Shown here: one piece after another, positions 3,236 through 62,232 of the stretch
How positions within the stretch are numbered: the first letter of the stretch is position 1
Layout: each line of letters begins with the position of its first letter
Source: Bacteroidaceae bacterium
GTDB lineage: Bacteria > Bacteroidota > Bacteroidia > Bacteroidales > Bacteroidaceae
Reading direction: 5' to 3'
NCBI GenBank assembly: GCA_017935785.1
Contig: JAGBGU010000075.1
Location: 1 to 64,000, forward strand
Length of the DNA: 64,000 nucleotides
Made by a program: the position numbers and the translations under genes
The notes under the pieces: generated by a model
The model's database searches: none
What the model saw: the letters and a program-made list of their open reading frames with translations, nothing else
What the model was told of the DNA's origin: nothing

Positions 3236-3284
3236 GTGAGCGATGAGCAATGAGCAATGAGCGGTGAGTTTTGAGTAATGAGAG
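3236..3284 (+). repeat. seven 7-bp tandem units (ATGAGCA type)
   Basis: Seven consecutive heptamers: GTGAGCG, ATGAGCA, ATGAGCA, ATGAGCG, GTGAGTT, TTGAGTA, ATGAGAG. The same unit occurs at 5367-5394, and inverted at 3634-3655. Confidence 0.85.
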
Positions 3285-5144: not shown

Positions 5145-5276
5145 AACTGAATTTTTGTATAAAACCAGCTGGAAAGGCGAAAATGCCCAGTTGGAAAATT
5201 TTTATTTCCCTGTTGGAAAATTATTTTTTCACAGTTGGAAAATCAAAATTTCGCAGTAGGGCAATATAGGGTGGCA
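5145..5276 (+). repeat. 22-bp-period degenerate tandem array (locus A)
   Basis: Units begin at 5167, 5189, 5211, 5233 and 5255, each exactly 22 bp apart, with a weaker unit at 5145. The constant part is AGTTGGAAAAT (variants AGCTGGAAAGG, TGTTGGAAAAT) followed by ~11 variable bases. The core resembles the GTTGGCAAAGTATT word of the array at 15.5 kb. Confidence 0.85.
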
Positions 5277-5366: not shown

Positions 5367-5394
5367 GTGAGCGATGAGCAATGAGCAATGAATT
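5367..5394 (+). repeat. four 7-bp tandem units (ATGAGCA type)
   Basis: GTGAGCG, ATGAGCA, ATGAGCA, ATGAATT. Its first three units are identical to those of the array at 3236. Confidence 0.8.
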
Positions 5395-13889: not shown

Positions 13890-15464
13890 TTAATGGTTGT
13901 CTTTTGTATAATTGAAGTGGTCCACATCAATGTATCCTCCGCTTTGCTTTGTGGCATAGTTGAAGATGGCATATCTTGTGCCCATGAAGAACAGGCGGTA
14001 GTCGAAAATCATCCTGAACGGTTTGCCTATGGGTTTCCATTCAGAGCCTTTTGTGCGGTAGTAGAATGTGGCAATGTCTTTGCCGGGATTGAAGTCGCCG
14101 TCTATGCGCAGTTCTATTTTCTTTCCTTTAAGGGCCACTTGTTCAATTATTTCCTCATCAACCTTTGTAACGGCCTTTTCACGGTCGCTAAGATGCACTT
14201 GTGCGGCAGATTGCGTGAGCGTGAAGTGTTTTCCGTTCTTCCTGATGGTAAGGATACCAGAGTGGCCGTTGAAGGCAGCCAGTCCGCAGCAGTCGCCGTC
14301 TTTCATGTGGCTGATGTCTATACTTACCGATGCCGAACAGCGCGGTCCTTCCATGCGCTGGCTAATTGTGTTTCTTGCCAGATACAGGTTGGGCGTTATG
14401 CGGTTTGTCTTAAGGCGGAGATAACCTTTGCGTTCAGTAAGAGACCATGCTTCATCCAGCGGATTGTGGTTCCATTGCCACAAGTTGTGCAGCTCGGGTT
14501 GTGAGAAATCGTCGCTGATTACCAGCGGGTTTCCCTTTACTTCGGTCCCGCCTACAGGCATAGTGTCCGGCACACTTCCGTTCTCGTCTCCCAGTATGGG
14601 CCATCCGTCTATCCATCTGCAGGGTACGAGCATTGGTACGCGTCCCACTCCTCCGCGGTCTTGGAAAAAAATGCCGTTCCATCCGCCTTTACCATCGTCC
14701 ACTATTGTTCCCTGTGCTACACCGCCGCCGAATCCGCCGAATCCGCTCTCAAGGATTACTTTCTTTTCATACGGGCCGTCAATACGGTCGGCGCGATAGC
14801 ATACCTGTCTGCGTATGCCACCCGGAGGCCATGAAATCATCAGCAGATAGTACTTTCCTCCGTGTTTTATAAGGCGGCTACCCTCCAGCAGTCCTCTTTC
14901 TGTTGCATCGCGCTCAAAAGTCTTACGGCGGCTGCCGGGCACAACGCTCTTCATGTCTGCCGATAGCTCAACGATGTCTCCCGTACCGTAGCAGACATAA
15001 ATACGATTGTTGTCGTCAAAGAAGAGTGCGGCATCGTGGAAGTGGGGCAGGCGTGAATGTATTTCCCATGGTCCTTCCGCCTTCCTGGCCTTCATGATGT
15101 AGGTGTCTGAATTCACGTCATCGTTAGTGGAGAATAGGGCATAGAACCATCCGTTGTGATACCGTAGTGATGTGGCCCATTGGCCGCGTCCGTATGCGGT
15201 GCCTTGTTCCATCTCGTATCTGGGCGAATCTGTCAGCTTGTCAAAAAGATAGCTTACCACCTCCCAGTTGGTAAAATCCTTTGACCGCATAATGGGTGCT
15301 CCTGGCATCAGATGCATTGTGGTGGACACCAAATAGTAATATTCTCCTACACGAATGATGTCGGGGTCGGGTACATCGGCCCACATCATGGGATTGCGCA
15401 ATGTGCCGAATGTGGTTTGGAATGCGGAAATAAGCAGGAATACTGACAAAAAGTATCGTTTCAT
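13890..15464 (-). CDS. GH43 beta-xylosidase/arabinofuranosidase-type enzyme
   Basis: 524 residues with a signal peptide ending near FQTTFG. The propeller starts with NPMMWADVPDPDIIRVG (catalytic base Asp) and has FFDDNNRIYVCYG, with the acid Glu likely in LLEGSRLIKHGGKYYL. The C-terminal ~200 residues form a beta-sandwich typical of GH43 xylosidases (DDFSQPELHNLWQWNHNP, then RMEGPRCSASVSID). It is expected to trim xylo- or arabino-oligosaccharides. It is the first gene of the pair. Its putative promoter at 15623-15630 is separated from the start by a 22-bp repeat array that would be transcribed as a leader. Confidence 0.86.
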   Translation of the reverse strand: MKRYFLSVFLLISAFQTTFGTLRNPMMWADVPDPDIIRVGEYYYLVSTTMHLMPGAPIMRSKDFTNWEVVSYLFDKLTDSPRYEMEQGTAYGRGQWATSLRYHNGWFYALFSTNDDVNSDTYIMKARKAEGPWEIHSRLPHFHDAALFFDDNNRIYVCYGTGDIVELSADMKSVVPGSRRKTFERDATERGLLEGSRLIKHGGKYYLLMISWPPGGIRRQVCYRADRIDGPYEKKVILESGFGGFGGGVAQGTIVDDGKGGWNGIFFQDRGGVGRVPMLVPCRWIDGWPILGDENGSVPDTMPVGGTEVKGNPLVISDDFSQPELHNLWQWNHNPLDEAWSLTERKGYLRLKTNRITPNLYLARNTISQRMEGPRCSASVSIDISHMKDGDCCGLAAFNGHSGILTIRKNGKHFTLTQSAAQVHLSDREKAVTKVDEEIIEQVALKGKKIELRIDGDFNPGKDIATFYYRTKGSEWKPIGKPFRMIFDYRLFFMGTRYAIFNYATKQSGGYIDVDHFNYTKDNH

Positions 15465-15479
15465 AATGAGGGATGTATT

Positions 15480-15611
15480 GTTAGACAGTTGGCAAAGTAT
15501 TGTTAGACAGTTGACAAAGTATTGTTAGACAGTTGTCGAAGTATTGTTAGAAAGTTGGCAAAGTATTGATTCACATTGGGCGAAATTCGTCCGATTGTTG
15601 GAGAAATAACG
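15480..15611. repeat. 22-bp-period tandem array (locus B) in the GH43 leader
   Basis: Units start at 15480, 15502, 15524 and 15546, exactly 22 bp apart, each GTTAGAC followed by AGTTGGCAAAGTATT with 1-3 changes. Two more degraded units follow at 15568 and 15590, the second still carrying GTTGG. The array begins 15 bp upstream of the GH43 start codon. Confidence 0.92.
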
Positions 15612-23130: not shown

Positions 23131-24747
23131 ATGAAAAGCAAACTTCTGGTTCTTTTACTTTTGTTCCCTGTACTGTTGCTCGCACAGGGGAAGAGACAGC
23201 TTGTATGGGTAATAGACGCGGGACATGGCGGCAAGGACGTGGGAACCAAGGGCCGGAACATCACCGAAAAGGAGATTAACCTTAAGGTGGCGCAGGAGGT
23301 GGTGCGCCTTATCCGTCAGCACAAGCCCGGCATTAAGGTGATAACCACACGTAACAGCGACAAGTTTGTATCCCTGGCCGAACGGTGCCGTATAGCAAAT
23401 AGCGCCAGGGCAGATCTCTTCCTGAGCATCCACGTGAACTATGCCAGAAAAAGAAGTCTGCGCGGTACGGAAACATTCTATGCAGGCCGAGCCCGCACAT
23501 CAAAAGGAAGTGCCAATGCCAGCAAGAGCGAGCTGCTTGCCAGACTGCTGCAGAACAGCTATGCTGCATCAGGCAGACCCACCTACCGTGGAGTAAGAAC
23601 CAACCGTATGTACGTTACCGCCAACACTAACATGCCCGCTGCGCTAACTGAAATAGCCTTCATCAGTAATACATCGGACGCAGCATACATTACTACTGAC
23701 AAGGGCATGAAGGAAACCGCAAGGATGATTTTCAACGGACTGATGGAATACTATACTGCCACTCAGACCAAGACGCACACTAAGGCACTCAATACACTGA
23801 GACGTACACGCGACCACAAGAGCGGTGTGAAGAATGCCACGCGCATTTCCGTCAAGGCTACAGGCGGAAAGGCTGCCGCCACAGATCTTGTTGAACTTCA
23901 ACCTGAAGAGGAGAAAACTCCTGTAGTTGCAGAGGAAAAGGAAACCAAAGCCGTTAAGGAGCCACAGTCTGAAGAACAACCTGACGAACAGGTCGCTTCC
24001 GTCGCATTGCCCGTGTTCAGCATACAGCTGTTCAGCTGCGACAGGGAACTGAAGCAGACAGATAAACGTCTGAAAGGACTCACGCCTGTAACCTTCCAAA
24101 AGGACGGTAAGATGTATAAGTGTCTCTATGCCGGCACCACTGACTATCAGCAGGTAAAAACCCGTCTGAAGACTGTTCGCCAGAAGTTCAGCGACGCCTT
24201 TATTGTGGCATATCTGGGCGAAAAATGCATCTCCACCGCAGAGGCTTTGAAACTTGTCAACAAGGCAACTCCTGCCAAAACAACCCCTAAGACAGCAACG
24301 AAGACAACTGCCAAGCCAGCTACCAAAACACCCTCAAAAACAAAGGTGGCAACAAAGCCTAAGCCAACAGGGGCGGCAACCAGCAAGTCCAAGACTGCAA
24401 CCAAGCCCAAGACTGCAACCAAGCCCAAGGCAGCAACTAACCCCAAGGCAGCAACTAAGTCTAAGGCAGCAACTAAGTCTAAGACAGCAACTAAGTCTAA
24501 GACAGCAACTAAGTCCAAGACTGCAACAAAACCCAAGACTGCAACGAGGACTACGAGCAAGGCAAAAACCTCTGCTAAGCCCAAGACAACCAGCAAAAAT
24601 AGCAAAGCCAGAGTTTCTAGTAAATCTAGTACTTCTAGTAAGTCCAGTACCTCTAGAAAAACTAACACTTCTAAGAAAACTAGTACCTCCAGCAAATCAA
24701 AAACATCCGGTAATTCTGGCAAAACCAAAACAAATGCTCAGCGTTAA
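23131..24747 (+). CDS. N-acetylmuramoyl-L-alanine amidase with SPOR domain and Lys/Ala/Thr-rich tail
   Basis: 538 residues. Signal peptide KLLVLLLLFPVLLLAQG. The Amidase_3 domain (~24-215) carries the zinc ligands: His in IDAGHGGKD, Glu in GRNITEKEINL, His in LFLSIHVNYA, and the catalytic Glu in PAALTEIAFISN. A SPOR-like domain lies at ~290-370 (FSIQLFSCDRELKQ, then YKCLYAG, and FSDAFIVAYLGE), which in this family binds denuded glycan at division sites. The last ~165 residues are low-complexity K-T-A-T and K-S-T-S repeats encoded by imperfect 15-18-bp DNA repeats (about 24380-24540), resembling histone H1 tails. The enzyme cleaves stem peptides for cell separation. The tail is likely to hold anionic polymers, which is inference. 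Confidence 0.9.
   Translation: MKSKLLVLLLLFPVLLLAQGKRQLVWVIDAGHGGKDVGTKGRNITEKEINLKVAQEVVRLIRQHKPGIKVITTRNSDKFVSLAERCRIANSARADLFLSIHVNYARKRSLRGTETFYAGRARTSKGSANASKSELLARLLQNSYAASGRPTYRGVRTNRMYVTANTNMPAALTEIAFISNTSDAAYITTDKGMKETARMIFNGLMEYYTATQTKTHTKALNTLRRTRDHKSGVKNATRISVKATGGKAAATDLVELQPEEEKTPVVAEEKETKAVKEPQSEEQPDEQVASVALPVFSIQLFSCDRELKQTDKRLKGLTPVTFQKDGKMYKCLYAGTTDYQQVKTRLKTVRQKFSDAFIVAYLGEKCISTAEALKLVNKATPAKTTPKTATKTTAKPATKTPSKTKVATKPKPTGAATSKSKTATKPKTATKPKAATNPKAATKSKAATKSKTATKSKTATKSKTATKPKTATRTTSKAKTSAKPKTTSKNSKARVSSKSSTSSKSSTSRKTNTSKKTSTSSKSKTSGNSGKTKTNAQR
24380..24545 (+). repeat. imperfect 15/18-bp coding repeats in the amidase tail
   Basis: Units such as AAGGCAGCAACTAAGTCT and AAGACAGCAACTAAGTC recur in frame and encode K-(A/T)-A-T-K-(S/P). 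The near identity of neighbouring units suggests recent copy-number change. Confidence 0.8.
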
Positions 24748-26159: not shown

Positions 26160-26545
26160 ATAGTGGGTTACAAAGTTGTCTGTTCCCATAATTTGAAGTT
26201 GTAAAGGTTGGTGTTTGTGCTATTTTTTTTTATTTGTAAACATTTTTTAGCATCATTCTCTACTTCTACCTTCGCTTTTTATACTGAATGTAAATATGTG
26301 TCTTTATTAACATTAAGCCATCATAAATAAATATTATAGCGGTAAAAGCATGCCTTAATGCCGCAATCTCCGCTTTTCTTAAAAAAACTTAAAGTTTTCC
26401 TTTGTAGATTGTATGGAAAATACTAATTTTACGCATCAAACCCATATTCATGGAGAAAACGTGCATTAGGTGCAGAAAACCCTCATGTTCCGTGTGCACA
26501 GAATATTAAATTTTTTTGAGGGTACACTTTAAATTTTTTAACCCA
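26160..26545. other. 386-bp AT-rich upstream region of the giant protein gene
   Basis: No gene is seen. A promoter-like pair lies at 26401-26431, leaving a ~110-nt leader. No strong hairpin or repeat array was found. Confidence 0.6.
26401..26431 (+). promoter_or_regulatory. putative promoter of the giant secreted protein
   Basis: TTTG 26401-26404, 19 bp, TAATTTTA 26424-26431 (one mismatch to TAnnTTTG). Confidence 0.45.
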
Positions 26546-29500
26546 ATGAGGAAAAACAACTTTTTCTCTTTGTGCTCTTTCATCGCTTTGATGTTTGCAT
26601 TCCTGTTCAGCGGATCTGCCGCGGCTCAGAATGCAGATGCCTTTGGCTTTGATGACGGGTACAAAAACAATGCGACCGTTACCCAGCAGGAAGACGGTTC
26701 GTGGACAATTGCCACTACGGGCAGCGACCCCTACGTGGCAACGTCTCGTCTGATGAAAGATCTGGCCGAGACAGAGACCTCTCTCACCTTCGAGTACAAG
26801 GCCGACACTTTGGCCAACCTCGAAGTATTCTTCTCAACCGAGGCAGGTAACAAGTATGCCACCGGTAAGAGTTACAACTTGGGTAACGCTCCCGCAACTG
26901 ATGAGTGGACACGCGTGACCATCGACATCACCAAGGCCCGCACAAAGTGGGGCTGGGGTAAGGCTGGCCACACTTTGCGTGTAGATGTCGGCAATGTCGA
27001 AGGCATCAACTTCCAGATTCGTGACCTGCGTCCTTGCGCAGATGCTCCCGCTAAGCTGGAAGGCTTCACCATGAAGGACGGCGCCATCCAGATCAACTCA
27101 CAGGAAGACTTTGACAAGTGGGTTGCCGGCTTCAGCACATTCATCACCGCTTCAATGATCAGCGATGTGAACGTAGACCTGAACGCCGACGTAGTTGCTG
27201 CTTCAAAGACCGGTTCTGTGATTCCTACCTACGCCGGTGTGTTCAATGGTAACGGTAACAAGATTACCCTGGACGTAACCTACGTGGTAAAGGGCACTGA
27301 AGGTCTTTCTCTGTTCCATGGTCTGTATGGTACTGTTAAGAATCTTGAGCTTGACGGAACCATCACCGGTAACAACAAGTTCATGGCTTCCGTAACAGCA
27401 GAAACTTTCACCGATGCCGTTATTGAAGGTGTGACCAGTAACGTAAACCTCCTCTCCTTGGTGAATGGAGACGGTACACACGGAGGTCTGGTAGGTCGTA
27501 CATCTGGTGCCACAACCATCCGTAACTGTGTGTTTGCCGGTAGTATCGATGGTGAAACCACCAGTATGTGTGGTGGTCTTGTAGGTTGGTTCAACGGAGC
27601 CACCAATATGGAAAACTGTCTTATGGTTGGTACTGTCAACGTACAGCACACCAGCGGTAACACCATCGGCCGTAACCCTGGCAACCTGAGAGGCAGCAAC
27701 TTGTTCGCCAGTTCAACAGTTAATGAAACTCCCGCAAGCTGTACTATCGTTACTCCCCAGCAGCTGGAAAGCGGCGAGGTTTGCTTCGCACTGAACAGCG
27801 ACCAGAAGAACATCGCATGGTACCAGAACATTGGCGAGGATGCCATCCCCGTTCTGGACAATACCCACAAGCAGGTATATGCCAGCGGTGAGTTCACCTG
27901 TAACGGTATGCTCGTAGGCGAAGGTACCTTCACAAACGAAGTAACAGAAACCAACATCCCCGACCACACTTACAACTGTGGTGTATGCGACAGCTGCGGA
28001 CACGTAATCCCCAACTACGTAACTCAGGATGCTGAAGGCTTCTACATTATTGACACTCCTGAAAAGTTGGTTTATATTGCCAACTTTGCAACATTGAATC
28101 CCAAGACTAACATCCGCATCACCAAGGATTTGGACATGACTGAGGTTACTGAGAGATACAACCCCATCATGAATACATACTCTGGTATCTTCGACGGTGG
28201 CGGCCACACCATTTCTAACTTGGTAATCAGCCGTCCCACCACCACCAATCAGGGTTTGATCGGTGTTGCAGGTAACTGTACAGTCAAGAACCTGACCTTG
28301 GACGCTTCTTGTTCAATTGAAGGTGCAGGTTATACAGCCGGTTTCGTTGGACAGACCAACGGTGCTGTAACCATCCTGTTGGAAGGCCTTGTAATGAAGG
28401 GTAACGTAGTGGCAAACGGTATCAACGCCGCCGGTATCTGGGGCTGTAACATGGGTAACGCCGCCAAGGCACACATCAAGAACTGTGCCGTAACAGGTTT
28501 CATCAAGGGTAAGGACCAGACTTCTGCATTCAGCGGATATGCCGGAACCGGCCATAAGACCGTTATGGAAAACTGCTGGTTCATGGCCGACAACCTTGAA
28601 GGTGTTTACCAGAACAAGCAAGACGAAATCTTCGTACGCCCCGGTGGTGACAATGTAAAGTACATCAACTGCTACTCTTCACTGGGTTCAAACAGCAATC
28701 CTGAAACAGGCGAAGATCGTTATGTTGAACTGACTCCTGAAATGGCTGAAAGCGGAGAGCTGGCCTACAGACTGAACGGCAACCAGAGCGAAATTGCTTG
28801 GTACCAGACACTCGGCGAAGACATGCTCCCCACTCTGGACAAGACTCACAAGCAGGTATTCTTCAGCGGCGAAACCGCATGTAACGGTGAATTGCTCACC
28901 GATGGTGACTTCAGCAACGACGGCGAGAACAATGTGGCCGATCACGAGTACACCGACGGTGTCTGCGAACACTGTGGCGCTGAAGAGCCCGGATTTGCTG
29001 CTGTAGAAATGGACCAGTTCGGTTTCTACCTCATTGACACCGCTGACAAGTTTGCTTACATCGCAAAGAAGGCCAGCAAGGATCCCACCATCAACATCCG
29101 CATTACCGAAGACCTCGACTTTGGTGAAATCAGCGAGTACTACGAGCCCATCGTTGGCGGTTACGCTGGTACCCTCGACGGTGGTGGCCACATCATCTCT
29201 AACTTCATTATTGACCGTCCCGACGTACAGATGCAGGCGCTCATCGGTCTGGCTGGTGCTTGTACCATCAAGAACCTGACCTTGGATGCCACCTGTAACA
29301 TCGTTGGTGCGGGTTATAGCGCAGGTTTCGTTGGCGAGACCACCGGTAGCGGTACCATCACCTTCGAAAACGTGTACATGCACGGTGACGTAACCTGTAA
29401 CGGTGCCAACGGTGCTGCCATCTACGCTTGTAACATGGGTTCAAGCATGACAGTTGTAATGACCAACTGTGGTGTTACCGGTAATGTATATGGCGGTCGC

Positions 29501-32500
29501 GAGGCTGGTAGCTTGAGCGGCTGGCTGGGTGCTGACAAGGCAACTCTGACCAACTGCTGGTCTATCGGTACTGTTGAGGCTCCCCGTGGCCAGGATACCT
29601 ATTTCGTAGCTCCTGTAGGTGTGAAGTTCAACAACTGCTGGTCTGCTTACGGTTCTCGTTCTGGCGTAGGTCAGATTTCAGAAGACGCTCCCATGACCGG
29701 AGAACTTACATGGAAGCTCAACGGCAGCAAGTTCACTGACGTAACATGGTACCAGAACCTTGACGAAGGTGACGCTTATCCCACACTGGACAAGACTCGC
29801 GGTATCATTTACAAGACCGAAGAAGGCTATGCCACTCTGATTGAAGGCGATGCTGAAAGCGTTGAAAACTTCATCAACACATTCGCTGCTGTCAGCAAGG
29901 CTTATGTTGAAAATGAAGAGGTTCAGAATTATGCCAACATAGCTCTGTTCGAAGAGTACACCGCATTGGTTGAGGCTTACGAAACAGTAACAGACATTGC
30001 TTCATTCATGGAAGTTTACACTCCCGAACAGGCTATGTATGCAGAGGTTAAGGCTTCTGTCGCTGCTTACAAGAACTACGAGGCAGCAATGCTCGCAATG
30101 AAGGAACAGCTGGCCGGACGCGACGACTTCAGTGGTCCCGACCGTGAATTCCTGGAAGACACCTACCTGGGTGATGATGAAGTAGCTCCCGGTACATACG
30201 AGGCTGCTCCCAACGGTAACTTCACTTACATTATGGAGAACCGTGTACTCACCGTAGATGAACTGACTGCTGAAATCGCACTCGCTAACGAACTGCTCCG
30301 CATAGCCGTTGCCAACGGATACGAAGCCGGAACTGACATTACCAATCTGCTGGTCAATGCAAACTTTGCCGACAACTTCAATGGTTGGAAGGGTTCAGTT
30401 TACAACCTCATTATTGGTTCTAACGTTGAGGGCAGCACCATGCGTGCAGCTGAAGCCTTCAGCAAGAACAACTATGACATGTATCAGGAACTGGTTGTTG
30501 CCAAGGGTGGTGTATACGAACTGCAGGTTCGCGGTGGAACCCGTGTAAACAACGACTGGCATTCTACCCAGTTGTCTCCCTACTTCTATCTGAACGGTAA
30601 CGCCAACTACCTGCAGGCAGTTAGAGAAGGTGCAATCCCCGTAGAAGATGCTGTTGACGGTGTAAACGCTCACCTCACCGGTTCAATCACCGACCTGCCC
30701 ATCCTCAACGACGAAGGCGACACTATCGCTTGGGTACCCCAAGGTCCTCTGGGTTCTAGCATCGCATTTGATGCCGGCCGTTATGACAACCGCATTGTAG
30801 TAAATGTAAATGCTGGTGATACCCTCCGCATCGGTATCAAGCAGGATTACTTCGGAAATGTTTCTAACGACTGGAGCTGTATCGGTGATATTCACCTGAT
30901 TTACCAGGGTGCGCTTGAAGATAGCGAAGAGGCTATCAACCGCAGTGCTGAAAGTATGATTGCTCGTGCTAACACATTGCTTGCTACCGAAGTGAAGACC
31001 GATGGCGATTATGGCAAGTATCCCAACTGGAGCCAGGCACTGAAGGATCAGGTTGCCGCTACCATCGAAAAGTTGCAGAATGGCGACGCTACTGCCAAGT
31101 ATGCAGCAATCGTAGAGATGAGCAACCTCTTCAAGGAAGCTGTTGATTGTAAGAAGGCTTACAGAAACTACTTCACAAGAAATGAAGAAATGTATGATGC
31201 TATTGTTACAGCAGAAGTACTTGATCCCGAAAATCTTGGTGAATTGTCAATTAAGGCAGCTGAGGTGTGGGCTCAGGCAACTGACGCTTATGCAGCTGGT
31301 AGCCTTTCAACTCAGGAAGCCAAGGATTATCTGTACATCAATACAATCCCCGTATTCTGTACTCAGGACGAGAATGGTGTTTACCACATTGCAAACACTG
31401 CTCAGATGATTGCGTTCACTAAGATGGTTAATGGTGGAACCAACAGAGTCAATGCTGTTCTTGACAGCGATGTTATGTTCGAAACGAGCATGATAATGAA
31501 TGACTTCTACGGAACATTTGACGGACAGGGTCACACCATGAACGTGAATATCGAAATCAGCGGTAAAGAAGGTGCTGCTCCCTTCTTTAATCTGCGTGGC
31601 GCAACTGTGAAGAATCTGACTGTAGAAGGTGAGATTACCACAGACAACAAGTTTGCCGCTGCTATTGCCGCTCATGCTTACGATGCTTCTACTATCGAGA
31701 ACATCCAGAGCTATGTGAATATCCACGGCACTACAGGTGGCGACGGTACACACGGTGGTATTCTCGCAGTAAACAATTCTGGTGCCGGTAAGGTTAACAA
31801 CTGTCTTGTTGCCGGTGTAATGGATGGTACTGCCAGCATGAACGGTGGTATTATCGGTTATGGTGGAGAAGATGCTACCATCAGCAACTGTCTGATTATT
31901 TCCCCCATTACATGGGATCCCTACAGTTCTAACATCATGGGACGTAATAAGGTAAAAGCTGTGAACAGCTACTACCTTAATCCTTATGGCGGCACAATGG
32001 ATGGTGCTACCCAGGTAACTCAAGAACAGCTCCTTGACGGTTCAATAGCACTCGCATTGAACGCAAACAAGACTCACTTGAACGTAGCATGGCGCCAGGA
32101 TCTGGGTGCAGACATTCACCCCGTTGTTGATCCTACCCACAAGATTGTTTACAAGAAGGCTGACGGTACTTACACCAATGAAGTACAGAACGAAATCCAG
32201 AAGCATGAAGGAACAGAATCTGATCCTTATATCATCAATACTGCTGCCGACATGGCTATGCTCCGCGAATTCATGGTTCCCGGTCGCGTGAACTACGTAC
32301 AGCTGGGTGCTGACATTGACATGAGCGAAGTAACAGCTTGGACTCCTCTGAACATGGGTGGCGACGTTGCCAACGGTGTTGATTACCAGAACCTCATCGA
32401 CTTCGATGGTAAGGGACATGTTATCAGCAACTTCTCTTGCACAGACGCAACCACTTCTTACAACAGCTTCTTCGGTATTCTGAATGGTAACGTTCGCAAC

Positions 32501-33922
32501 GTTGGCTTCAAGGATGCAGTAGTAGCTTGCGAAAAGAGCGGAACCGGTATCCTCGCAGGATATGTAGGACACGACCAGTTCAAGAATGAAGATGCCACCA
32601 AGGCATACAGCAAGATTGAAAATGTATGGGTTAGCGGTAAGATTACCGGTAGCAACAGCTACATCGGCGGTTTCTTCGGAACCGTTGCAGGTCCCACCGC
32701 TATGAAGAACTGCTACAGCAATGTAGAAATTATCAGTGACGCCGCTTATGTCGGTGGTATCGCAGGTCGCGTTCGTGACCAGTTCCATCTGGAGCAGGCT
32801 TATTCTGCAGGTAGCATTACTACTACCAAGACCGACAATACTGTTGGTGGTATCATTGGTGGTGCACAGCAGGAAGCCACATCTCCCAGCTATTATAATA
32901 ATGTAGTGGTATGGAACGGCCAGACAGAGTTTGGTCCCACCATCGCAGCTCAGAATGTAACACTTCCCACAGCCGACCTGTTGGATGTTGTATTCAATGA
33001 GGAAGGTGTTGCTGACCAGTCTGCAGCTCAGATGAATGTAGAGGTAATCGGTACTCCTCAGATTGTTTACAACGAAGAGCTGAAGCAGAATGTCATCATG
33101 ACAGAAGCTGACGTAGAAACTCCTGTAAGCTACCTGAAGGTTGACTACGCTGGCAACCAGGCGTTCATGGACAACCTGGCTGACGGTTTCACATTCGAGA
33201 CCACATTCGCTCTGCGCAGCGAGAACATCCCCGGCGATATCACTCCCTTCCGTGCAACTGAAAGCGGCGGCTTCGGTATCGACCTGCTGGCCAGCGGCCA
33301 AATCAAGACCGTTGTTCGCACTGAAATCGAAGGTGTAGGCGCATACCGCTATGCTAACACTTCCGCTTATGTTAAGCCCAACCTTTACTACCATGTAGTG
33401 GGTGTTTACAACAAGGCCACCAACGAGGTAGCTTGCTATGTTAACGGCGGCAACGCTGCAAGCGCTTCTGCTGTAGGTAACTTCCAGTTCCCCGCTAACG
33501 AGGACAGCCACTGGCTGGGTATCGGTGCTGACTGCGGTGGTACCACTGCAACTGACGGAGGCGACTTCGAAATCGTTAACGCACGTATCTACAGCGAACC
33601 TATGACAGAAGCAATGGCCAAGGCTCTGTACTTCAAGCAGACCGGACGTGACTTCTATGCAGGCGACAAGGTTAACAACATCTCATTCTTCGATGGTACC
33701 AACTTTGCAGCACTGCAGTCAACAGTAGTAGGCTGGGGCGCTCCCTGGCAGTGCGACATGAGCGAAGGCACATATCCCACCTTCGACGGTTCTTTGGCTG
33801 ACGGTATCAACAAGGTTGAGAACATGGCTAAGGGTAAGATCTTCAATATCAATGGTATCCAGGTAGAGAAGACCACTAAGGGTCTCTACATCATTGATGG
33901 CAAGAAGGTTATGGTTAAGTAA
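26546..33922 (+). CDS. giant secreted GLUG-repeat/LamG protein
   Basis: 2458 residues from ATG 26546, where a clear signal peptide begins (LCSFIALMFAFLFSGSAAAQ). Order: an N-terminal beta-sandwich (~30-170); three beta-helix-like modules with GLUG-type words (GGLVGRTSGA, GAGYTAGFVGQTNGA, GAGYSAGFVGETTGS); a helical section (~1110-1270); a galactose-binding-like domain (NLLVNANFADNFNGWKG, ~1272); a second helical section; two more GLUG-type modules; a LamG-like domain (~2190-2370); and a C-terminal tail KIFNINGIQVE ... GLYIIDGKKVMVK of the sorting-signal type. Two CxxC words (GVCDSCG near 479, GVCEHCG near 806) close modules 1 and 2. It is probably a surface adhesin or glycan binder. Codon use is strongly biased (AAC, GGT, CCC), suggesting high expression. 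Confidence 0.82.
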   Translation: MRKNNFFSLCSFIALMFAFLFSGSAAAQNADAFGFDDGYKNNATVTQQEDGSWTIATTGSDPYVATSRLMKDLAETETSLTFEYKADTLANLEVFFSTEAGNKYATGKSYNLGNAPATDEWTRVTIDITKARTKWGWGKAGHTLRVDVGNVEGINFQIRDLRPCADAPAKLEGFTMKDGAIQINSQEDFDKWVAGFSTFITASMISDVNVDLNADVVAASKTGSVIPTYAGVFNGNGNKITLDVTYVVKGTEGLSLFHGLYGTVKNLELDGTITGNNKFMASVTAETFTDAVIEGVTSNVNLLSLVNGDGTHGGLVGRTSGATTIRNCVFAGSIDGETTSMCGGLVGWFNGATNMENCLMVGTVNVQHTSGNTIGRNPGNLRGSNLFASSTVNETPASCTIVTPQQLESGEVCFALNSDQKNIAWYQNIGEDAIPVLDNTHKQVYASGEFTCNGMLVGEGTFTNEVTETNIPDHTYNCGVCDSCGHVIPNYVTQDAEGFYIIDTPEKLVYIANFATLNPKTNIRITKDLDMTEVTERYNPIMNTYSGIFDGGGHTISNLVISRPTTTNQGLIGVAGNCTVKNLTLDASCSIEGAGYTAGFVGQTNGAVTILLEGLVMKGNVVANGINAAGIWGCNMGNAAKAHIKNCAVTGFIKGKDQTSAFSGYAGTGHKTVMENCWFMADNLEGVYQNKQDEIFVRPGGDNVKYINCYSSLGSNSNPETGEDRYVELTPEMAESGELAYRLNGNQSEIAWYQTLGEDMLPTLDKTHKQVFFSGETACNGELLTDGDFSNDGENNVADHEYTDGVCEHCGAEEPGFAAVEMDQFGFYLIDTADKFAYIAKKASKDPTINIRITEDLDFGEISEYYEPIVGGYAGTLDGGGHIISNFIIDRPDVQMQALIGLAGACTIKNLTLDATCNIVGAGYSAGFVGETTGSGTITFENVYMHGDVTCNGANGAAIYACNMGSSMTVVMTNCGVTGNVYGGREAGSLSGWLGADKATLTNCWSIGTVEAPRGQDTYFVAPVGVKFNNCWSAYGSRSGVGQISEDAPMTGELTWKLNGSKFTDVTWYQNLDEGDAYPTLDKTRGIIYKTEEGYATLIEGDAESVENFINTFAAVSKAYVENEEVQNYANIALFEEYTALVEAYETVTDIASFMEVYTPEQAMYAEVKASVAAYKNYEAAMLAMKEQLAGRDDFSGPDREFLEDTYLGDDEVAPGTYEAAPNGNFTYIMENRVLTVDELTAEIALANELLRIAVANGYEAGTDITNLLVNANFADNFNGWKGSVYNLIIGSNVEGSTMRAAEAFSKNNYDMYQELVVAKGGVYELQVRGGTRVNNDWHSTQLSPYFYLNGNANYLQAVREGAIPVEDAVDGVNAHLTGSITDLPILNDEGDTIAWVPQGPLGSSIAFDAGRYDNRIVVNVNAGDTLRIGIKQDYFGNVSNDWSCIGDIHLIYQGALEDSEEAINRSAESMIARANTLLATEVKTDGDYGKYPNWSQALKDQVAATIEKLQNGDATAKYAAIVEMSNLFKEAVDCKKAYRNYFTRNEEMYDAIVTAEVLDPENLGELSIKAAEVWAQATDAYAAGSLSTQEAKDYLYINTIPVFCTQDENGVYHIANTAQMIAFTKMVNGGTNRVNAVLDSDVMFETSMIMNDFYGTFDGQGHTMNVNIEISGKEGAAPFFNLRGATVKNLTVEGEITTDNKFAAAIAAHAYDASTIENIQSYVNIHGTTGGDGTHGGILAVNNSGAGKVNNCLVAGVMDGTASMNGGIIGYGGEDATISNCLIISPITWDPYSSNIMGRNKVKAVNSYYLNPYGGTMDGATQVTQEQLLDGSIALALNANKTHLNVAWRQDLGADIHPVVDPTHKIVYKKADGTYTNEVQNEIQKHEGTESDPYIINTAADMAMLREFMVPGRVNYVQLGADIDMSEVTAWTPLNMGGDVANGVDYQNLIDFDGKGHVISNFSCTDATTSYNSFFGILNGNVRNVGFKDAVVACEKSGTGILAGYVGHDQFKNEDATKAYSKIENVWVSGKITGSNSYIGGFFGTVAGPTAMKNCYSNVEIISDAAYVGGIAGRVRDQFHLEQAYSAGSITTTKTDNTVGGIIGGAQQEATSPSYYNNVVVWNGQTEFGPTIAAQNVTLPTADLLDVVFNEEGVADQSAAQMNVEVIGTPQIVYNEELKQNVIMTEADVETPVSYLKVDYAGNQAFMDNLADGFTFETTFALRSENIPGDITPFRATESGGFGIDLLASGQIKTVVRTEIEGVGAYRYANTSAYVKPNLYYHVVGVYNKATNEVACYVNGGNAASASAVGNFQFPANEDSHWLGIGADCGGTTATDGGDFEIVNARIYSEPMTEAMAKALYFKQTGRDFYAGDKVNNISFFDGTNFAALQSTVVGWGAPWQCDMSEGTYPTFDGSLADGINKVENMAKGKIFNINGIQVEKTTKGLYIIDGKKVMVK

Positions 33923-33942
33923 TTGACTATCCCTCTCTTTAT

Positions 33943-33980
33943 AATAATCCCCCGGGTTTCGCTCGGGGGATTATTGTTTT
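33943..33980 (+). terminator. terminator of the giant protein gene
   Basis: Twelve-bp stem AATAATCCCCCG/CGGGGGATTATT followed by GTTTTC, 20 bp after the stop codon. Confidence 0.88.
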
Positions 33981-34075
33981 CTATAGTTCCACATATTGGT
34001 TCTGCAGAGATTCACGTCGTTTATCGTAACAGTTATGTGGTTCTTTTTGGCGGATAAATATGGAAGAAAAAAGTA

Positions 34076-34171
34076 AGATAGCTTAGTTGGCCTGTAAAGA
34101 TAGCTTTGCAGCTCTGAGGAGATAGCTTAGTCGGTCCGAGGAGATAGCTTCTTGGAAAGTTAAGATTGTTG
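34076..34171 (+). repeat. 22-bp-period array C1 (AGATAGCTT)
   Basis: The word AGATAGCTT is repeated exactly at 34076, 34098, 34120 and 34142, each followed by 13 changing bases. A degraded copy AGATTGTTG lies at 34163. Confidence 0.9.
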
Positions 34172-34216
34172 GCGATGAATGTTGAAAGACAAAATGCAAC
34201 AAAATTCAAAAAATAA

Positions 34217-34392
34217 CGCACTATAGTCCGTTGTCGATCGCACCATAGTGCGTTAGCCATTGCACTATAGTCAATTGGTCATCGCACCATAGTCCGTTAG
34301 CCATCGCACTATAGTCTGATTGACAATAAAGTATTCTCCGGCCTTTAACAAAGTATTGTCAAGTCTTTGGCAAAGTATGGACGCTTCTCCGT
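34217..34392 (+). repeat. 22-bp-period array C2 (CGCACTATAGT, then CAAAGTATTG)
   Basis: Eight units in perfect 22-bp register at 34217, 34239, 34261, 34283, 34305, 34327, 34349 and 34371. The first five carry CGCACTATAGT or CGCACCATAGT. The last three switch to TAAAGTATTC, CAAAGTATTG and CAAAGTATGG without losing register. CAAAGTATTG is also the core of the array at 15.5 kb. Confidence 0.92.
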
Positions 34393-34494
34393 TTTCGCTT
34401 TTTCGCTGTTTATAAATCACGTATGTGGAATGAATGGTTGTGCTTATGATATTGGTTGTTTGAATATGACAGGGTATAGAATTAATGTATACAA

Positions 34495-34524
34495 AAAAAG
34501 CATGCCCATGGGGGCATGCTTTAG
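34495..34524 (-). terminator. terminator of rplU-rpmA
   Basis: AAAGCATGCCC/GGGCATGCTTT stem with a run of T on the minus strand (TTTTTTTG). It is symmetrical, so it could act in both directions. It lies 21 bp past rpmA. Confidence 0.88.
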
Positions 34525-34544
34525 TTTTTCTAATGTAATTCTGA

Positions 34545-34808
34545 TTATGCCTCAGCTACGGGCAATACAGATACGGTTGAACGGTCCATACGACCCTTCT
34601 TGAAGGTTACGATACCATCAGTGAGTGCATACAGTGTGTTGTCCTTACCCATACCTACATTCTGGCCGGGATAGTGACGAGTACCGCGCTGACGTACGAT
34701 TACGTTACCGGCGATGCACTTCTGTCCACCATAAATCTTAACACCTAATCTTTGAGCTGCTGACTCGCGGCCGTTCTTAGAACTACCAACACCTTTTTTA
34801 TGTGCCAT
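34545..34808 (-). CDS. rpmA: 50S ribosomal protein L27
   Basis: 87 residues starting [15 protein letters not shown], with [14 protein letters not shown]-like [21 protein letters not shown] and GKDNTLYAL, all typical of L27. It sits near the peptidyl-transferase centre. It starts directly with MAHKKG, with no cleavable N-terminal extension of the Firmicutes type. It lies 25 bp downstream of rplU. Confidence 0.97.
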
Positions 34809-34833: not shown

Positions 34834-35151
34834 TTAAGCAATTACATTTTTAATAACCACTTCTGAGAACTGCTGACGGTGACCGTTCAGTTTACGGTAA
34901 CCCTTGCGGCGCTTCTTGTGGAATACGAGAACCTTGTCACCCTTAACCAGGGGAGTGATGATTTCGCACTCTACCTTTGCTCCTTCAATTACGGGAGCGC
35001 CTACGGTTACATTACCATCGTTGTCTACCAACAACACTTTCTCAAACTCAACAGTCTGACCAGCTTCTACATTCTGGATGTGGTGAACAAACAACTTCTT
35101 GCCTGCCTCTACCTTGAACTGCTGACCGTTAATCTCTACGATTGCGTACAT
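34834..35151 (-). CDS. rplU: 50S ribosomal protein L21
   Basis: 105 residues: [40 protein letters not shown], then the C-terminal [19 protein letters not shown]. It binds 23S rRNA. It is the first gene of the rplU-rpmA pair and has a consensus promoter with an ~80-nt leader. Confidence 0.97.
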
Positions 35152-61889: not shown

Positions 61890-62232
61890 CTGCTCTTGCT
61901 GAATTCACCCAAAATAGTCATCAGGTATTTCCGCAAAACCTTTAGCAGACATCTCGGAGGGCTTGGATTTGTCCGCAACGCTGTTTTCGGACATCTCGGA
62001 GGGCTTGGATTTGTCCGCAAAGCTGTTTTCGGACATCTCGGAGGGCTTGGATTTGTCCGCATAGCTGTTTTCGGACATCTCGGAGGGCTTGGATTTGTCC
62101 GCAAAGCTGGTTTCGGACATCTCGGAGGGCTTGGATTTGTCCGCAACGCTGGTTGCGGACATCTGGGAGGGCTTGGATTTGTCCGCAACGATGGTTGCGG
62201 ACATCTGGGCGGTTTCTGAAATTTTGTCTCAA
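61890..62232. other. 343-bp intergenic region occupied by a 42-bp array
   Basis: Convergent ends of the helicase and CapA genes. Because the repeat unit is a multiple of three, four or five frames stay open across it on both strands, but none has protein-like composition or a plausible start. Confidence 0.7.
61948..62220. repeat. seven 42-bp tandem units with inverted half-sites (locus D)
   Basis: The word GGACATCTCGGAGGGC recurs at 61948, 61990, 62032, 62074, 62116, 62158 and 62200, in exact 42-bp register. Each unit contains CGGACA and, about 23 bp on, TGTCCG. The next unit follows ~19 bp later, so inverted half-sites alternate about every 21 bp. Spacer bases AACGCT, AAGCTG and ATAGCT vary. 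Confidence 0.93.

Follow-up and report, generated by a model that had tools for sequence, protein, structure and literature searches.

Among the systems described so far, the closest to the repeats considered here is BrickBuilt of Porphyromonas gingivalis, a 23-nt minisatellite situated inside a MITE (PMC4596501). Tandem direct repeats of 22 and 23 nt were also reported for P. gingivalis W83 in its genome paper, as cited in the BrickBuilt study (PMC4596501). The ends of Tn7-type transposons carry arrays of TnsB sites arranged as 22-bp repeats, three in the left end and four in the right (PMC8649781), and in Streptomyces promoters the regulator BldC forms cooperative multimers on 9-bp head-to-tail direct repeats (PMC5859096). 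A literature search covering 22-bp repeats, palindromes and helical phasing in Bacteroidetes, Prevotella and Parabacteroides returned the P. gingivalis work alone, and within that scope the class of arrays presented below is undescribed.

The window, by which we mean the entire 64,000-nucleotide stretch that was analyzed, comes from a draft genome of 2.95 Mb whose family placement is shared by other Bacteroidaceae-like genomes. Genes were taken as the ORFs called by a script, and the genomes used for comparison were mostly MAGs. Eight 22-bp units at 34217-34392 lie, together with an adjoining array, in a 622-bp intergenic gap (33923-34544) that has convergent genes on either side, and the arrays are placed between the intrinsic terminators of those two genes. 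The features of this locus, and two further arrays of the window, are as follows.

26516..33922, forward strand: gene upstream of the arrays, encoding a secreted-type protein of 2468 aa with a Laminin_G_3 domain
33941..33977, forward strand: intrinsic terminator of the upstream secreted-protein gene, with the arrays beyond it
34056..34158, forward strand: array 1, a family A element with an A-rich left flank and four AGATAGCTT cores, period 22
34205..34314, forward strand: array 2a, family D, TGC-N10-GCA dyads plus a 6-bp gap (ctatag or ccatag), five gaps, period 22; the first five of the eight units
34315..34384, forward strand: array 2b, three AAAGTATTG-type units of family E in the same 22-bp register as array 2a; same family as the array at 15453-15586
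34497..34522, reverse strand: intrinsic terminator of rpmA, likewise with the arrays beyond it, seen from the other side
34545..34808, reverse strand: rpmA (L27), identified by sequence, convergent with the upstream gene
34834..35151, reverse strand: rplU (L21), identified by sequence
5165..5268, forward strand: family C array (CAGTTGGAAAA) within a longer dispersed element
15453..15586, forward strand: family E array of at least four GTATTGTTAGACAGTTGGCAAA units

The first-pass annotation had described the eight units as standing in strict 22-bp register while their sequence changes, and the register was confirmed. Cores of the form GCAC[TC]ATAG start at 34218, 34240, 34262, 34284 and 34306, every step being exactly 22 bp, and AAAGTAT cores starting at 34328, 34350 and 34372 continue that register exactly. 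The gap 33923-34544 contains 246 lag-22 matches, compared to 158.5 +/- 10.2 in 1000 dinucleotide shuffles, and the highest value reached at any lag from 10 to 50 in all shuffles was 201. Both blocks of the array were called independently by TRF. While the phase is exact, the change of word is only partial: the D and E blocks have 9.5 of 22 bases in common when compared in register, which is the best of 23 registers (the rest giving 2.3-7.6), so the difference between the words is partly divergence. The two blocks fit a frame of T-C-N13-A plus a hexamer, and both retain a hexamer that contains TAT. Each block nevertheless represents a separate family with members elsewhere in the genome, and the two are joined here without loss of phase. 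The cores of array 1 (34076, 34098, 34120 and 34142) keep the same period in a register other than that of the eight units. This array had been overlooked, as had those at 5165-5268 and 15453-15586.

The eight-unit array belongs to a class that extends through the genome and across the order Bacteroidales. Autocorrelation of intergenic DNA had been suggested as a check, and when it was run, tandem similarity in non-coding DNA peaked at lag 22 and its multiples in the source genome, in its genus and in Parabacteroides. Lag-22 arrays in non-coding DNA numbered 16 for 406 kb of the source genome (at most four at any other lag of 11 or more, leaving aside multiples of 22), 17 for a 361-kb sample of 20 genomes of the genus (at most three at other lags) and 11 for 297 kb from Parabacteroides (at most four). 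B. fragilis gave three in 200 kb sampled; there were none in 200 kb sampled from P. vulgatus, and none in 300 kb from 15 genomes of other families of the class and phylum. All of these frequencies derive from sampled stretches of genomes. The carriers by name include Parabacteroides, Bacteroides and Prevotellaceae records. TRF returned 94 arrays of period 22 and at most 24 of any other period of 10 or above, with only eight of period 23 among the arrays listed. Copy number was confined to 2-5, and long arrays were absent.

Core occurrences fell on the array register 291 times and at +/-1 or 2 bp about five times, a statistic that is conditional and carries an ascertainment bias because lag 22 was itself the means of finding the arrays; neither TRF nor the search for the family D pattern, described below, was tuned to it likewise. 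Against a column-shuffle control, 57% of 91 arrays were palindromic at p<=0.05. Neighboring units are 86% identical in their best 10-bp core (a figure biased upwards, as the core was chosen as the best window) and 61% identical in the remainder, and linkers between adjacent units that agree at only 61% argue that the arrays are not freshly duplicated. No motif common to the flanks of all arrays was detected, only weak 6-mer enrichments. Register between neighboring arrays with different words was also considered, and 6 of 11 distinct pairs were offset by a multiple of 11 to within 1 bp, which is too few to support a claim. An origin in phages or plasmids was rejected, as the arrays matched nothing in either; in viral contigs, families A and B had zero matches and family D had four scattered ones.

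In the source genome the arrays form several dispersed intergenic families with family-specific flanks, families A to D having from 9 to more than 20 loci each. Family A, with the AGATAGCTT word, occupies about 18 dispersed loci; its 8-bp core is almost invariant and its spacer variable, the genes beside its copies are diverse and unrelated to one another, and inverted repeats are not apparent at its ends. Family B (ACTTAAGT) has nine loci and family C at least 20. Inverted-repeat-like ends, TCAAAATTCTTTAC and GTAAAAAAGTTTGA (12 of 14 matched by eye), were seen in family C alone. The units of family E end in GCAAAGTATTG, and the family has a separate array elsewhere in the window, at 15453-15586 (around 15475).

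Other repeats surround these families, and the intergenic DNA of the source genome can be described as a mosaic of short repeats. The left flanks of family C copies (L235-L250) hold other dispersed modules, for example CTTATGTTCTTTTGTCGAAAAAACTC. Simple 7-bp repeats, TGAGCAA or TGAGCGA, are present at 3237-3282 and 5368-5391 and recur in intergenic DNA of the genome, and they account for many of the signals at lags 7, 14 and 21. At 61948-62206 a 42-bp unit (GACATCTCGGAGGGCTTGGATTTGTCCGCAAAGCTGGTTTCG) is repeated six times in tandem, the copies being 96% alike and probably within coding DNA, and at 24385-24698 nine copies of an 18-bp tandem repeat (AAGTCCAAGACAGCAACT) are followed by a second 9/18-bp array, a coding-like period. 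Copies of family A are located near the ends of contigs C27, C29, C50, C56 and C89 of the source genome, and such repeats therefore probably break assembly.

In family D the unit is a TGC-N10-GCA dyad, roughly TGCGWTGGCCAWCGCA, conserved over 16 bp, and after it come exactly 6 bp whose sequence is nearly free. In 18 arrays (65 units) from the source genome and two relatives, the 47 gaps contain 25 different hexamers and are constant at 6 bp in length, and chains of three dyads number 30 at period 22 compared to 0-5 at the other periods among 18-27. This gap, along with the scarcity of off-register cores, upholds the earlier observation of fixed spacing with varying sequence. The family D pattern is present in 19 of the 139 genomes of the genus, with a gap hexamer characteristic of each species, and the reversed pattern, used as a control, was near zero in the 139 genomes. 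The sister species G025 yielded 172 matches on the forward strand and 161 on the reverse, and these counts include some places that match in both directions. In G025, 22 loci were inspected; they have two to four dyads in register, most are intergenic, and many begin with AAAAAC and finish with GTTTTT. Matches are found every few kb on every contig among those listed (L356-L377). G025 is the best system for studying the class.

Our leading, if tentative, explanation is that the arrays are platforms, namely cooperative, face-aligned DNA sites for putative dimeric proteins, spread as dispersed elements of about 100 bp. Each array would offer about four dyad-symmetric recognition words two helical turns apart, on which dimers of a putative sequence-specific DNA-binding protein would lie side by side on one face of the DNA and bind cooperatively. 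The differing words of the families would probably serve different paralogous proteins under a 22-bp rule common to all, and the intergenic elements would multiply while gaining and losing whole units by slippage or unequal exchange. On this explanation selection, rather than a copying mechanism, would keep the 22 bp. This explanation is favored by the dominance of period 22 over unrelated words, the palindromy, the family D gap, the rarity of off-register cores and the copy number of 2-5, as well as by the near-invariant core of family A beside its variable spacer. It is also favored by the family B locus L219, where the array is nearly unchanged in three species and the flanks have diverged.

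Against the platform explanation stands the patchy occurrence of arrays among relatives. In the two nearest relatives found, the rpmA gap has zero arrays in the DNA examined; in two other genomes it holds arrays with different words. Loss of whole units between orthologues also counts against it. At one orthologous family A locus, four units are present in the source genome but three and three in two relatives, each of which lacks a different unit, with all steps exactly 22 bp; register can therefore be kept by duplication and deletion alone. The proposal of the first-pass annotation that spacing itself is selected thus survives in part: the units do keep a fixed distance while their words change, but whole units gained by duplication or lost by deletion also contribute to keeping the register. 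The related suggestion of a phased binding platform on the same DNA face fits, with the protein as a putative component, although 22 bp corresponds to 2.1 turns of B-DNA at 10.5 bp, so face alignment would be imperfect over four units. A nucleoid or envelope protein as the binder is not indicated. A broader extension, which we consider unlikely, is that the arrays make up a general address system of Bacteroidales, in which many dyad-array families under one 22-bp geometry, their words fast-turning and species-specific (such as the family D hexamer), would be read by matching, fast-evolving DNA-binding proteins that organize or mark the chromosome.

Ranking close behind the platform explanation, and on balance somewhat unlikely, is the possibility that the arrays are MITE-type selfish or neutral elements whose 22-bp step is set by copying, the register being a by-product without host function. 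Each event would then add 22 bp, either through an enzyme whose nicks in the dyad are staggered by about two turns or through slippage from one dyad to another. The dispersed families and their family-specific flanks agree with this, as do the inverted-repeat-like ends of family C, the two relatives that lack different whole units, the patchy occurrence and the precedent of BrickBuilt (PMC4596501). Homology to relatives likewise ends at the edge of one copy, at the orthologous family A locus: in L019 (1-330), the left edge of a family A element is where the contig loses its homology to two relatives, a break that may reflect ectopic recombination between copies, or else a rearrangement or a chimeric contig. 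Copying alone accounts less well for the narrow copy number and the absence of long arrays, for a family D gap that is fixed in length though free in sequence, and for orthologous arrays that are better conserved than their flanks and lack indels, as in the spacing at the family B locus L216 in two species. Neither a target-site duplication nor an autonomous parent was found. L216 was considered as a clean empty site for family B and set aside, since the third species, relative G249, has different DNA there, with what reads as an ordinary terminator, and not a simple lack of the element.

A role as structured RNA, in which transcribed arrays would form tandem hairpins acting as terminators, 3'-end stabilizers or small RNAs, seems improbable. 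The arrays do fold with z of about -4.5 relative to shuffles on both strands, but folding of this strength is expected of any palindromic array. Family B lies 4-21 bp past a stop codon in five of its nine copies, and its copy at L216 takes the place of the apparent ordinary terminator in G249. T-runs are found at 41% of array ends in G025, compared to a background of 12%. In contrast, array ends in general show no enrichment of T-runs, and those in G025 are independent of whether a gene points at the array, and the arrays were accordingly rejected as general intrinsic terminators. At the present locus, moreover, the arrays sit between two separate terminators, and no Rfam family matched the arrays. 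Covariation was weak or absent in 71 family A units, and none was detected among stem pairs of 64 arrays when partners were shuffled within the array (z -2.5 and -0.9); an early signal (z 3.5) disappeared once the central three pairs were omitted. The lack of covariation between arms does not support a hairpin RNA, and implies that the arms follow a half-site consensus. Conserved half-sites without covariation, together with fixed spacing, are features of an operator array for a dimeric regulator, and they favor putative half-site recognition in double-stranded DNA with fixed geometry, and with it a protein platform over RNA hairpins. Ordinary minisatellites produced by replication slippage, with 22 bp arising by chance or recent duplication, are very unlikely: the units are tandem and differ by whole units between orthologues (4 vs 3 and 3), but a single period dominates over unrelated words in many genomes, the linkers are too dissimilar for fresh duplicates, and there are neither long arrays nor a broad distribution of copy number or period.

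If conservation acts on spacing and not on sequence, one functional class would include many of the intergenic repeats that stand unannotated in abundant gut bacteria, and such a class would escape searches based on sequence similarity. It would predict that a family of proteins, either DNA-binding or copying enzymes, acts with a fixed geometry of two turns. The 22-bp arrays may also help to explain why contigs of the present draft genomes often end near such repeats.

Compared to known systems, the arrays are similar to BrickBuilt in that both are found in Bacteroidales, are intergenic and dispersed, consist of tandem units of similar length, and gain or lose whole units (PMC4596501). BrickBuilt differs in its 23-nt unit, its single sequence family, its length of up to 991 nt, and its leader, tail and TIRs in common with IS elements (PMC4596501), whereas the present arrays have 22 bp, many unrelated words, 3-5 units and mostly no recognized TIR. 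The P. gingivalis W83 repeats agree with ours in order and unit length, and are probably the same phenomenon, although the account available through the citing paper does not describe their locations, words, dyads or spread. Tn7-type ends also place about four 22-bp sites in a row over a total of some 90 bp (PMC8649781). Unlike those ends, the present arrays have no apparent surrounding transposon and are dispersed genome-wide as dyad units with locus-specific words. REP/BIME elements, associated with RAYT transposases, are likewise short palindromic intergenic repeats in dispersed clusters. To our knowledge, REP elements do not show exact 22-bp phasing. A RAYT/REP origin was rejected, as Y1_Tnp/RAYT occurred in only 4 of the 10 genomes searched and was absent from the array carriers B. 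fragilis Q1F2 and P. chinchillae. In manner of working, the arrays may be compared with Tn7 ends (PMC8649781) and with BldC, which multimerizes on phased repeats whose number varies (PMC5859096).
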